A stretch of 64,000 bases of DNA from Anastatus disparis (lineage: Eukaryota > Arthropoda > Insecta > Hymenoptera > Eupelmidae). Numbering within the stretch: position 1 is the first letter of the stretch; each line of letters begins with the position of its first letter. Positions 23,682 to 29,635 of this stretch are shown one piece after another. The DNA lies in the NCBI GenBank assembly GCA_017163975.1, contig JAFFSR010000353.1, forward strand, positions 154,001-218,000, read 5' to 3'. Under the pieces are notes generated by a model. That model worked only from the letters and a program-made list of their open reading frames with translations. It had not been told where the DNA came from and did not search any database. The position numbers and the translations under genes were made by a program.

Positions 23682-25190
23682 ATGAGTGCATTTGAAACTA
23701 GTAATAAAACACTCAGATCTCCGATTATCTTGCGGAGTAGCAAATCAAAAATGGTAACACCCAACAATAATAACGATAACAAAAACTCTAATAACACACC
23801 TGAAGACAAGGGTAAACAAAATAACGCGACACACACAGAACAAGTAACCCTCACGGACCCGAAAATGGCGGATGACGAAAAAATGAAAGCCGTTAATGAA
23901 AGGATTGATAAACTATGTTCCGCAGTTGAACACCTAACAGCTCAAGTCGACGCAAAATCCGTGAGTAATATTAAAATGCCGGACATGAACGCAGACGACT
24001 TAATCTACGCGCAGCAATTAATAAAATTGCATCAAGATGTCAATAGTCAAAGTAAAATGAACAACGGTCCACGTTTTGAAGAAAGCACGGCAGGTAACAC
24101 GTTTGAGACCAATAAAAATGCTAACTCGTTTAATCAAATCCCGCCTACGACAAAATCAACTACAAACGAATTATCCAATCAAGATTTCAGTCTTCGCGGC
24201 CCACCTGCATACCTTAATCAAAATACCAACAACCAAAGTCACTGTCCGCCTAATCAAGCGTCAAATAGCGGTTACAGCCCACAGTTCGGACACCACCCGT
24301 TCGCAACACCGTATCAGAATAACGCGACCACGATTAAATTCCAAATGTTCTGGACAAACAAACCCGGTGCCTGGTTCGACCATTTCGAACAACAGCTCGC
24401 GACGTTCAGAATATGGGATGACAACGTTAGATATAGTAATTTGATAAACCATTTAGAGCCACCGATCATGCAAAGCGTCGCGCACACACTCAGAACCTCT
24501 AAGGATAACGAAAAATATGACACGCTCAAACAAGTATTATTAGAGAAATTTACAATGTCCCAGACAACAAGAATGAATCGGTTATATAAAGAATGTAAAC
24601 TCGATGGGCGAAAACCATCCGATTATTTAAATGAGTTGCTCGACCTCGCGGGTGACGATATCAGCCGATCTGCCGTCTTAATTCATTGGAAATCAGAACT
24701 ACCCTTCGATACACAAAAAGCAATGCTGGAGACAATCGAACTGAAAAATGAAAGACAGCAAGTAGCCACGGCGGACAACATGTATGAGTTAGTCCGCAGA
24801 TTTAATAAAGATGTGCACGAAATCAGCTCGAGTCCCAAACAGCAGGGGCAAGAACCACAACACCCAGGAAGTGACCTAAACCAAATTAAAGAAACCGTAA
24901 ATGAAATTAAACGAAGCCTCAGAGCAAACAGCAATAACGGCAAACAACAGAATAGCAGAAGTAGATCACGCGCGCGGGACCAAGGCGACAATAAGAGAAG
25001 AGCTTCACCCCGCACACCCTCGCCGGAAAAACTGTACAGGCTATGTTATTACCACTACTGGTTCGGAATAAAAGCGAGATCCTGTCAAGACCCCTGTGGT
25101 TGGAAAGGGGGTGGCAACGCAGTTAAAAAACCACCGAGAGAGCAGTCCCCAAGGAACTCCGCTGATAAGGGAAACCAAAACACCCAGTAA
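23682..25190 (+). CDS. gag: Gag polyprotein with CHCC zinc knuckle
   Basis: 502 codons. The N-terminal third is Asn/Gln/Lys-rich with a short predicted helix (about residues 65-95). The central capsid-like region, about 220-380, has a Retrotrans_gag-type Trp/Phe pattern (WFDHFEQQLATF; ...LLEKF...). A basic Arg/Ser stretch precedes the nucleocapsid knuckle: C455, H458, C468 and C472, that is C-x2-H-x9-C-x3-C. This CHCC order replaces the usual CCHC and is a known hallmark of CsRn1-type Gag. Gag packages the element RNA. Its stop at 25188-25190 overlaps the start of pol in the -1 frame. The frame is intact. Confidence 0.93.
   Translation: MSAFETSNKTLRSPIILRSSKSKMVTPNNNNDNKNSNNTPEDKGKQNNATHTEQVTLTDPKMADDEKMKAVNERIDKLCSAVEHLTAQVDAKSVSNIKMPDMNADDLIYAQQLIKLHQDVNSQSKMNNGPRFEESTAGNTFETNKNANSFNQIPPTTKSTTNELSNQDFSLRGPPAYLNQNTNNQSHCPPNQASNSGYSPQFGHHPFATPYQNNATTIKFQMFWTNKPGAWFDHFEQQLATFRIWDDNVRYSNLINHLEPPIMQSVAHTLRTSKDNEKYDTLKQVLLEKFTMSQTTRMNRLYKECKLDGRKPSDYLNELLDLAGDDISRSAVLIHWKSELPFDTQKAMLETIELKNERQQVATADNMYELVRRFNKDVHEISSSPKQQGQEPQHPGSDLNQIKETVNEIKRSLRANSNNGKQQNSRSRSRARDQGDNKRRASPRTPSPEKLYRLCYYHYWFGIKARSCQDPCGWKGGGNAVKKPPREQSPRNSADKGNQNTQ
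25169..25175 (+). promoter_or_regulatory. -1 ribosomal frameshift heptamer G GGA AAC
   Basis: In the gag frame the bases read G GGA AAC, a canonical X XXY YYZ slippery site. The -1 (pol) frame has a stop at 25166-25168 and is open from 25169, so the heptamer sits at the very first base where slippage can enter pol, 15-21 bases before the gag stop. A downstream stimulatory RNA fold was not assessed. Confidence 0.8.
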
Positions 25191-27772: not shown

Positions 27773-29635
27773 CACAGGGTTCTGAAAGCTGCAATAAAAT
27801 GTAGTACCAACAATGACAATTGGACACGAGTCTTATCTTCAGTAATGCTAGGACTACGCACATGCATACGGCTAGACACCGAAGCAAGCCCAGCAGACTT
27901 TGTGTTCGGTACAACCCTTAGATTACCGGGAGAATTCTTCGCCTTTGGAGAGTTTGAACCGGATAGACACATCTTCTTGGAAGAATTCCGAGAGTATATA
28001 CGAAAGATACAACCAGTACCAACAGCGCACAAGCATGCGATTAAACCTTTCGTTTTTAAGGAACTCGCATCGTGCACGCACGTATTCTACCGTAATAAAG
28101 CCAAGGTCGGACTGGATAAACCCTATACAGGCCCTCATAAAGTCATTTCCCGCCATGATAACGGACGAAACTTCGTAATAGACATTGACGGACAGAACAA
28201 AACCGTAGCCGTCGAGATGTTAAAGCCGGCATACTACGTCCCAAACGACCTCGTAGAGGTCATCCTAGGCGCAGAGGAACCTGTAAATCGGAATCAACCC
28301 AACAGGAATTTTAGCAACAGCTATAATTTTGACTTTGCAACTCAAAATGGTAATTACCCTCACACGACAGGAGAAAGTCAAATTAGGGAACCCAGTCCAG
28401 AAAACCTTAACCATGACATCATCACACCCAATCAAGATGATGACCAATCAGTCGAGGTTACCATAAACACCCGAACTAACGCCAGAACCAACGAAACTCA
28501 ACATAAGCCTAGAAATACCCAAGAGAGTGTTGTACAAACGCCCACTAAGAGCGAAATACGAGCTCCATTAAGGACTTATGTAAACAAAAAGAAGATAAGG
28601 TTCAGTCAGCAAAGTCAAGTCATGGAGATCCCTCCCAAAGAATTAGCTGGGAAGAGATACTCAATGCCCAAAGCAATCCCGCTAAACGAGATATTCACAG
28701 ATCTGAAACAAAGGAAATGGATTATTGGACCATCAATTGGTATTGGTGGATTCGGTGAGATTTACACCGCCGCCCCATACACAGGTACGATCCCAAAAGA
28801 CTACCCAGTAGTGATCAAGGTAGAGCCTCATAAAAATGGACCCTTGTTCGTCGAGATGCATTTCTACATGCAAGCAGCCCTCCCAGACATGTTATCAGAC
28901 TGGGCAGAGGAGGAATTAATCTCAGAGGTTGGATTACCTCAGTATTTCGGCGCAGGTAGTCATAAAATCGACAAGCAAGAATACAGATTTGTGGTATTAA
29001 AAAGATACGACCTTAACCTAGAAAAACTATTCTTAAAAGCAGATAAAAGGTTTCCTGAATACACAGTGTACCATTTGGCTTGGACCATCCTAATAGCCCT
29101 AAAGTACATGCATCAAAAAGGTTACGTACATAACGATATTAAAAATTCCAACATACTCATAGACAAAAGCAAGAAAGATATGGTGTATCTAGCAGATTTT
29201 GGTCTGTCCTGTAAATTCAAAACCGACATTGAGTTTAAACCAGACCCCAAAAAAGCCAATAACGGCACGCTAGAATTCATGAGCCGTGATGCCCATCAAG
29301 GAGTCCTCACAAGAAGAGGAGACTTTGAATCACTAGGTTACAATATGATCACCTGGGCAGGCGGTAAATTGACTTGGCACGAAAAACTCGATGACCAAGA
29401 AGCAGTCTTCGAACTCAAAAATTCAGCCTTCGCAGACCCTCCAGAATTCATAGAAAAGTGTTTCGGCGATCAAGACCATCCTCAGATAATTGACGAATAT
29501 TTCAGAGAAATATCTCAATACGAGCATAACCAAACGCCCGATTATCACAAATTACACACAATTCTGGCAGCAGGAATGTGCAATCTAAATCACTTCCCAT
29601 TCAAGGATTTTTATCCACACTTGGATCATGACTAA
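27773..29635 (+). CDS. Pol part 2: integrase C-terminus fused to VRK-like protein kinase
   Basis: Same frame as part 1 across the TGA; first ATG at 27845. It begins with the rest of the integrase core (HRVLKAAIKC...), then a GPY/F-like module (YTGPHKVISRHDNG, about 28110-28240). A polar linker ends in RTYVNKKKIRF, which resembles the normal C-terminus of Gypsy Pol proteins. About 30 residues later a ~300-residue kinase domain starts and fills the rest of the ORF. No stop or frameshift interrupts this part. Either it is made by TGA read-through as a ~1488-codon polyprotein, or the parent element has Trp at this codon. Codon use is like the rest of pol, so capture is not fresh. Confidence 0.9.
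   Translation, partial: HRVLKAAIKCSTNNDNWTRVLSSVMLGLRTCIRLDTEASPADFVFGTTLRLPGEFFAFGEFEPDRHIFLEEFREYIRKIQPVPTAHKHAIKPFVFKELASCTHVFYRNKAKVGLDKPYTGPHKVISRHDNGRNFVIDIDGQNKTVAVEMLKPAYYVPNDLVEVILGAEEPVNRNQPNRNFSNSYNFDFATQNGNYPHTTGESQIREPSPENLNHDIITPNQDDDQSVEVTINTRTNARTNETQHKPRNTQESVVQTPTKSEIRAPLRTYVNKKKIRFSQQSQVMEIPPKELAGKRYSMPKAIPLNEIFTDLKQRKWIIGPSIGIGGFGEIYTAAPYTGTIPKDYPVVIKVEPHKNGPLFVEMHFYMQAALPDMLSDWAEEELISEVGLPQYFGAGSHKIDKQEYRFVVLKRYDLNLEKLFLKADKRFPEYTVYHLAWTILIALKYMHQKGYVHNDIKNSNILIDKSKKDMVYLADFGLSCKFKTDIEFKPDPKKANNGTLEFMSRDAHQGVLTRRGDFESLGYNMITWAGGKLTWHEKLDDQEAVFELKNSAFADPPEFIEKCFGDQDHPQIIDEYFREISQYEHNQTPDYHKLHTILAAGMCNLNHFPFKDFYPHLDHD
28686..29632 (+). other. VRK-like serine/threonine kinase domain
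   Basis: Glycine loop IGIGGFGEIY (about 28738-28767); ATP-binding Lys in VVIKVEP (28817-28819); helix-C Glu in FVEMHFY; catalytic HNDIKNSN with Asp at 29135-29137; ADFGL with Asp at 29195-29197; GTLEFMSRDAH in the activation segment. KVEP...NGPLF, the GTxEFxSxDAH block and RRGDxExLGYxMIxW are hallmarks of vaccinia-related kinases, a branch of the CK1 group. Classical VRK has DYG where this has DFG. There are no introns, as expected for capture of a processed mRNA. The target is unknown. VRKs phosphorylate chromatin proteins such as BAF and histone H3, so a role in nuclear entry or integration is conceivable but is inference. Confidence 0.92.

Follow-up and report, generated by a model that had tools for sequence, protein, structure and literature searches.

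What is a complete protein kinase of cellular type doing at the end of a retrotransposon polyprotein, and does the element keep it for use? The question is raised by a 64,000-nucleotide (nt) stretch of the Anastatus disparis genome (Hymenoptera, Eupelmidae; assembly GCA_017163975.1, contig JAFFSR010000353.1, positions 154,001 to 218,000 of the forward strand), hereafter the window, in which a complete Ty3/Gypsy long terminal repeat (LTR) element spans positions 21626-30789, its features lying on the + strand. This element very probably belongs to a CsRn1-like lineage of at least four subfamilies in which a VRK1-derived kinase extends Pol, is made by -1 frameshifting within Gag-Pol and is packaged near the integrase.

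The kinase domain, 335 residues long and intron-free, occupies positions 28628-29632, at the end of a 596-amino-acid (aa) open reading frame (ORF; 27845-29635, P0001) that matches the Pfam family Pkinase at E 7.6e-18. An initial annotation, made from the sequence alone, had listed VRK-type kinase motifs here, and the glycine loop, VAIK Lys, alpha-C Glu, HxD, Asn and DFG were all found, leaving the catalytic residues intact. Its proposal of a VRK-type identity also holds, given that the best matches among solved structures were VRK1 (E 2.1e-70), then VRK2 and VRK3, with CK1 far behind, and that the domain scored 240.8 bits against VRK1 and 75.7 against CK1 epsilon. In a 59-row tree the window kinase fell on a long branch inside hymenopteran VRK1 (100/100), beside the chalcid Copidosoma and one further protein (81/81). 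The host's own VRK1, an exon-split gene on a different contig, grouped with Copidosoma and that same protein (95/82) in the tree of the 25 element kinases. A hymenopteran VRK1 origin is firm on these comparisons, and the element kinase is, as judged from its intron-free sequence nested among hymenopteran VRK1 proteins and from the exon-split host gene, a captured copy of the processed kind that had been suggested. It keeps 46 of the 49 columns that are invariant in all other insect VRK1, as against 41 of the 133 most variable columns, and one of the three changed invariant columns is the old start Met. The copy is alignable from close to the start of VRK1; the C-terminal regulatory tail of VRK1 is absent, the frame ending shortly after the kinase domain.

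The window case is not a one-off, since many copies carry the kinase. With the kinase as query, the host assembly (939 Mb, 399 contigs) yielded at least 121 matches, a lower bound because 120 of 330 candidates were scored, and 12 of these matches lie stop-free in frames of 1438-1499 aa. Twenty-nine loci were examined in detail and fall into groups A (n = 20; the window family and its 80-90% relatives), B (n = 3; 34%), C (n = 4; 27-29%) and D (n = 2; 29-30%). The sample was non-random, group A being the 20 best-scoring matches and groups B-D having been picked among about 60 weaker ones, partly for long frames. An unbroken Pol-kinase frame of 1367-1499 aa is present in 12 of the 29 loci (six in A, three in B, three in C, none in D), a proportion that is not a rate, since the nine B-D loci were chosen partly for their long frames. 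For 5 of the 20 group A copies both LTRs were recovered, in four cases inside one locus and in one with the help of a second stretch, most other loci ending before the 3' LTR; mismatches between the repeats were few (2/317 in the window copy, and 1/317, 2/324, 2/304 plus a gap, and 8/318), so some copies are young.

The kinase lies in the Pol frame. Upstream, a 502-aa Gag ORF (23682-25190; DUF7041, PF23055, E 1.6e-13) bears a CHCC motif of the form CX2HX9CX3C (25044-25097). Pol is in the -1 frame relative to Gag and opens on a slippery heptamer, GGGAAAC, read in the Gag frame (25169-25175), exactly where the initial annotation had placed the start of the feature. A stem is predicted 3' of this site (25180-25215), with a folding energy of -14.3 kcal/mol for 25176-25225, and the longer stretches 25176-25260 and 25170-25300 give different folds. 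Among the 18 of the 29 loci examined for it, the heptamer stands in register in 5/5 window-family, 2/2 group B and 1/1 group D copies, and its exact form is absent from eight other group A and two group C copies. Groups B and D retain the heptamer, flanked by a different stem sequence, as seen at the Gag-Pol junctions of L029, L032 and L036; the junction stems of groups B and C were read by eye.

The first part of Pol (25259-27772) matches the Pfam families RVP, RVT_1, RNase H, integrase H2C2 and rve, that is, protease, reverse transcriptase, RNase H and integrase up to the end of its core; the element is a Gypsy retrotransposon, as the initial annotation had said. A premature in-frame stop (27770-27772), the only one within 25169-29635, ends this ORF. 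The same frame resumes at 27845 with the integrase C-terminus and its GPY/F-type module, a linker and the kinase. This integrase C-terminus aligns with kinase-less Pol relatives at up to 58%, and the motif with which many such relatives end, a short basic Pol tail motif near the C-terminus that fits a strict pattern in 29 of 120 of them, is internal in the window element (LRTYVNKKKIRF, 28565-28603), with the kinase starting right after it. The earlier description of Pol running into a complete kinase in one frame stands for the frame, for the completeness of the VRK1-type domain and for the 12 unbroken loci; it does not stand for the window copy as it is, owing to the stop. We strongly infer from this arrangement that the kinase is produced as the last part of Gag-Pol via the -1 frameshift, at Pol stoichiometry, and that it would be present in the particle with or next to the integrase.

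Kinase-less sister elements, which like the stop and a third ORF had been overlooked in the initial annotation, are also found in the host genome. The Pol of a 1013-aa relative gave at least 68 matches there (14549 candidates, 45 scored), 22 of them near full length in frames of 1026-1187 aa, which leave no room for a kinase behind Pol, and eight more two-piece matches in frames of 1106-1188 aa; at L043, the one locus whose tail was read, the frame ends in the Pol motif and no kinase follows.

The groups differ in their catalytic residues. The VAIK Lys, HxD Asp, HxDxK Lys, Asn and DFG Asp are kept in 16/16 full group A kinases, the window copy included, three loci (L014, L017 and L027) showing single changes of a glycine or of the alpha-C Glu. 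Group B (3/3) has lost the DFG Asp and the first loop Gly; group C (4/4) the DFG Asp, the first and second loop Gly, the HxDxK Lys and the Asn; and group D (2/2) the HxD Asp, the Asn and both the Asp and the Gly of DFG. By residues, then, group A is shown to be catalytically intact and groups B, C and D to be degenerate at key positions. A structure model of the group C domain nevertheless reached a mean predicted local distance difference test (pLDDT) of 81.4 and a predicted template modelling (TM) score of 0.82, with VRK1 as its best PDB match (E 2.2e-27, TM 0.80), the alignment behind the model having included VRK1 rows. Since the VRK1 fold is predicted despite the lost residues, catalytic decay in group C is, on this model, a decay without that of the domain.

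Selection was assessed by the ratio of non-synonymous to synonymous substitution (dN/dS; Nei-Gojobori) on 31 chosen pairs with codon-bootstrap limits, very close pairs being noisy and very distant ones saturated. Diverged group A kinases, at synonymous divergences (dS) of 0.44-1.07, gave 0.084-0.108 (limits 0.05-0.164), and all computed group A pairs with dS of at least 0.37 gave 0.083-0.138. Two group C pairs gave 0.111 (0.070-0.168; dS 1.19) and 0.121 (0.067-0.185; dS about 1.2), and a closer one 0.157 (0.072-0.288). For comparison, Pol gave 0.043-0.049 in pairs at dS 0.66-0.98, and the linker, looser than the kinase, 0.17-0.40. The ratio across copies, which the initial annotation had proposed as a check, is thus about 0.1 and not 1, and the kinase is under purifying selection in groups A and C, to which the claim is confined.

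What the kinase does can be approached through the clients of its cellular parent. BAF is a downstream target of VRK1 (PMC9175622, in the part available), and VRK1/NHK-1/ballchen has been proposed as a histone H3 kinase (PMC9249732, likewise in part). Vaccinia virus offers a precedent, being a mobile genome with a VRK-family kinase, B1, which must phosphorylate BAF, and, separately, a VRK-family pseudokinase, the B1 paralogue B12, which is nuclear and acts on VRK1 and BAF (accessible parts of PMC6395007 and PMC9175622); it differs in being a DNA virus with free-standing proteins, whereas the element's kinase is fused to Pol and was captured from a hymenopteran host. Because of these clients and this precedent, action on BAF and chromatin at integration is our best guess, and the kinase may quite possibly, at somewhat under even likelihood, act on VRK1 clients at the DNA and nuclear step, above all on BAF and chromatin. 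Under this proposal, the kinase would be made only when ribosomes shift into Pol, be packaged with Pol and reach the nucleus together with the integrase. The active form of group A would release the bridging of BAF and chromatin around the incoming cDNA or the target. Host VRK1 and its substrates would be bound or diverted by the pseudokinase forms, the two kinds resembling the vaccinia kinase B1 and pseudokinase B12.

Several observations weigh against this account of a Pol-borne VRK1 kinase. In the window copy the premature stop lies 5' of the kinase, so that Pol and kinase occupy two ORFs of the same frame and could be fused only by read-through. The absence of catalytic residues from groups B-D means that kinase activity is not the common function and that phosphorylation is not the whole story. 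VRKs reportedly phosphorylate BAF and thereby break up the pre-integration complexes of retroviruses, which speaks against a straightforward gain for the element when BAF on its own cDNA is phosphorylated. In close pairs dN/dS is higher, reaching 0.27 in group A; the only D pair gave 0.645, on 13 changes, and the B kinase pairs showed four non-synonymous and no synonymous changes, and because of these noisy high values in close pairs the selection claim is not extended to B and D. Pol and kinase histories differ within group A, L020, L023 and L025 compared with L026 having kinase dS of 0.02-0.04 and Pol dS of 0.25-0.45, so that element copies have recombined. Long branches meet in the kinase tree of the 25 element kinases, and when the groups are run singly they attach at different points, each still inside Hymenoptera: B+D and C beside host VRK1 and the protein that grouped with it and Copidosoma, and A at the base of the Hymenoptera rows (the support labels of these trees come from a re-rooted tree and are possibly misplaced). 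Finally, an integrase-only tree that includes L043 does not separate the kinase-bearing groups from it, a single kinase clade not being rejected (approximately unbiased test, p = 0.182), and group C is placed differently by the kinase tree and the full-Pol tree.

A non-catalytic role would accommodate part of this. The VRK fold might serve mainly as a tether or scaffold through which the integrase or the particle attaches to nucleosomes, to chromatin or to host VRK1, the activity of group A being ancestral and secondary. Three of the four subfamilies lack catalytic residues, yet group C keeps a predicted VRK1 fold and a dN/dS of 0.11, and the position of the kinase, at the integrase C-terminus, is the one that chromodomains occupy in other Gypsy lineages. 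We nevertheless regard a mainly non-catalytic role as rather unlikely: retention of the VAIK Lys, HxD, Asn and DFG Asp in all 16 full group A kinases across dS of up to 1.07 is hard to explain without selection for catalysis, and the C-terminal tail of VRK1, which binds the acidic patch, was not captured.

It is more doubtful still that the substrate is the Gag or integrase of the element itself, phosphorylation setting the time at which particles disassemble or integration occurs, with little role for BAF. Presence in the same polyprotein as both would favour such targets. Against them, this role is impossible for the pseudokinase branches, the analysis gave no pointer to sites in Gag or the integrase, and VRK1 clients, as far as the available parts of the sources go, include BAF (PMC9175622) and a proposed histone H3 site (PMC9249732).

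Setting function aside, several related elements might each have captured VRK1 independently, to which the separate attachment points of the singly run groups and the lack of resolution in the integrase-only tree would lend themselves. The combined trees speak against this. Kinase trees and tables used 25 of the 29 loci, leaving out the partial L013, L015 and L018 and the broken L028, and all 25 element kinases united in a single clade (95/85) inside Hymenoptera, next to the chalcid VRK1 sequences, that of the host among them (85/75). In a full-Pol tree inferred by a quick method, which left out seven of the 29 loci whose Pol pieces were short, the 22 kinase-bearing rows were one clade (97 in the Shimodaira-Hasegawa-like approximate likelihood ratio test), apart from the 58 database rows without a kinase. 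In groups A and C alike the kinase sets in directly behind the Pol tail motif, a motif not recognisable in B and D. A single capture of VRK1 is therefore likely on the phylogenies, and independent captures are improbable.

That a processed VRK1 copy was caught once and carried along without function is highly implausible and already contradicted: host sequences caught by LTR elements are in many cases passengers, many copies here are broken and the D pair reached 0.645 on only 13 changes, but both A and C have a dN/dS of about 0.1, no upper limit reaching 0.19 where dS exceeds 0.4, and long unbroken frames persist in A, B and C with conserved sites spared. The length of the domain (335 residues), its many occurrences in the genome and the dN/dS values exclude chance.

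The initial annotation knew of no LTR clade with this architecture, and no published precedent was found: open-access full texts, a search outside which Repbase lies, contained no Pol-VRK retroelement. None of 157 Pol relatives from the protein database matched kinase models at E 10 (controls 3/3), no Pol domain appeared in the Pfam annotation of the 120 listed of 168 kinase relatives (candidates of about 328-1043 aa), and no PF00069 protein occurred among the 120 best of 6275 Pol-search matches or the 120 best of 4185 profile-search matches. These searches scored the candidates sharing most words, and other species may carry the fusion. IMG/VR held no relatives of the kinase or of Pol. By eye, a 790-aa protein of the centipede Strigamia maritima (P0002) comprises two tandem VRK-like domains, the second incomplete.

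Known systems resemble the element in part. Acute transforming retroviruses have captured the host kinases src, abl and raf and are usually replication-defective and recent, whereas the host kinase here lies within an otherwise complete Pol and is old and diversified. VRK3 is a cellular VRK-family pseudokinase that has lost catalytic residues; groups B-D share such a degenerate VRK fold but lie with hymenopteran VRK1, in trees that held no VRK3 row. Extra ORFs are known in LTR elements (PMC5408684, PMC7264820), the word kinase occurring in neither text as available in part. Bdelloid LTR elements have likewise gained enzyme genes beyond gag-pol, namely a GDSL esterase and a DEDDy exonuclease as ORF3, but these are separate extra ORFs and include no kinase (the word occurs 0 times in PMC5408684, in the part available).

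So far as these searches go, no earlier retroelement lineage is known to have a protein kinase as part of Pol and to retain it under selection. The finding hints that the VRK1-BAF axis, a known battlefield of poxviruses, is of importance for insect retroelements too. Active and catalytically degraded forms of one domain occur side by side in nature, which makes catalytic and scaffold roles separable, and what limits or licenses germline cDNA integration becomes a testable question.

By its sequence features the window element is a CsRn1-like Ty3/Gypsy element; named CsRn1 reference elements were not in the full-Pol tree, in which the closest named Pols were those of Nasonia and Trichogramma elements. 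It shares with the CsRn1 clade (CsRn1, PwRn1, AgCR) the GPY/F-type module, the Gag motif CX2HX9CX3C, which the PwRn1 paper names as a mark of the clade, and a 4-bp target site duplication (TTTT here; 4 bp in PwRn1), all according to the accessible part of PMC2582038. The same part reports CsRn1-clade elements that lack a chromodomain or an env-like protein, in a text that was not searched for kinases. In contrast to the described CsRn1 elements, a VRK1-type kinase follows on from Pol here, and copies of groups A and B have a third ORF (ORF3).

Behind the kinase, 12 of the 20 group A loci have an open frame of 334 aa or longer, which in 11 of them runs into the end of the locus; no frame there reaches 300 aa in any of the five window-family copies. 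Four downstream stretches were fetched, of which two from group A (L039:150-1925 and L040:3284-5059, the latter on the - strand) and one from group B (L041:266-2005) hold a homologous ORF3 of about 590 aa, with 28% identity between the groups, homology having been compared for two group A frames and one group B frame; in the single group C stretch every frame is shorter than 120 aa. Compared with each other, the two A versions have a dN/dS of 0.138 (0.105-0.185). The ORF3 model is weak (pLDDT 60.6) and leucine-rich repeat (LRR)-like, F-box/LRR proteins ranking first among its structure matches, and a sequence search of PDB gave nothing credible. An env gene was considered and rejected in view of the LRR-like model and of Pfam scans in which no env family appeared. 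Tentatively, the ORF3 of groups A and B may be F-box/LRR-like and recruit a ubiquitin ligase. The window family has probably lost ORF3, because short ORF3 matches remain between its kinase and the 3' LTR, in a non-coding stretch (29636-30460) whose matches are 24-57 nt long within ORF3 and 83-237 nt long in the sequence that follows it. Taken together with the kinase, ORF3 could conceivably complete a kit for the takeover of host signalling, with a Pol-delivered VRK1 kinase acting on BAF and chromatin at integration, pseudokinase sister families modulating host VRK1, in parallel to vaccinia B1/B12 and possibly in competition between families, and an F-box/LRR adaptor redirecting ubiquitin ligases; we hold this combination to be rather unlikely.

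The remaining anatomy of the window element is that of a complete insertion. The 5' LTR (21626-21942) and 3' LTR (30473-30789), each of 317 nt, are direct repeats with two mismatches, and the window element is young. The primer binding site, TGGTGACCCCGACGTG (21944-21959), directly follows the 5' LTR; it looks tRNA-Trp-like and would then resemble that of the CsRn1 clade. This 16-mer is present in 8 of the 29 loci, at 603-755 nt in seven and at 4716 in L024, and the nine loci of groups B-D stop short of the 5' end. A polypurine tract read by eye (30461-30469) precedes the 3' LTR. The target site duplication TTTT lies at 21622-21625 and 30790-30793. The element was inserted in one arm of an older palindrome, so that the other arm keeps the empty site: the flanks joined at a single TTTT align gap-free over 121 nt with the opposite arm. 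The palindrome arms are 21504-21625 versus 30937-31058 and 30789-30853 versus 30877-30941. Adjoining the element, a 313-nt inverted repeat of 99% complementarity (20351-20663 and 21175-21487) forms part of a nest of palindromic repeats.

Elsewhere in the window, a 496-aa ORF (11001-12491, - strand) had no Pfam match, and a 249-aa ORF (34269-35018) had a zf-AD match below threshold. Other retroelement fragments, comprising integrase pieces and a reverse transcriptase, lie at 202-1413, 45087-45740 and 58032-59126.

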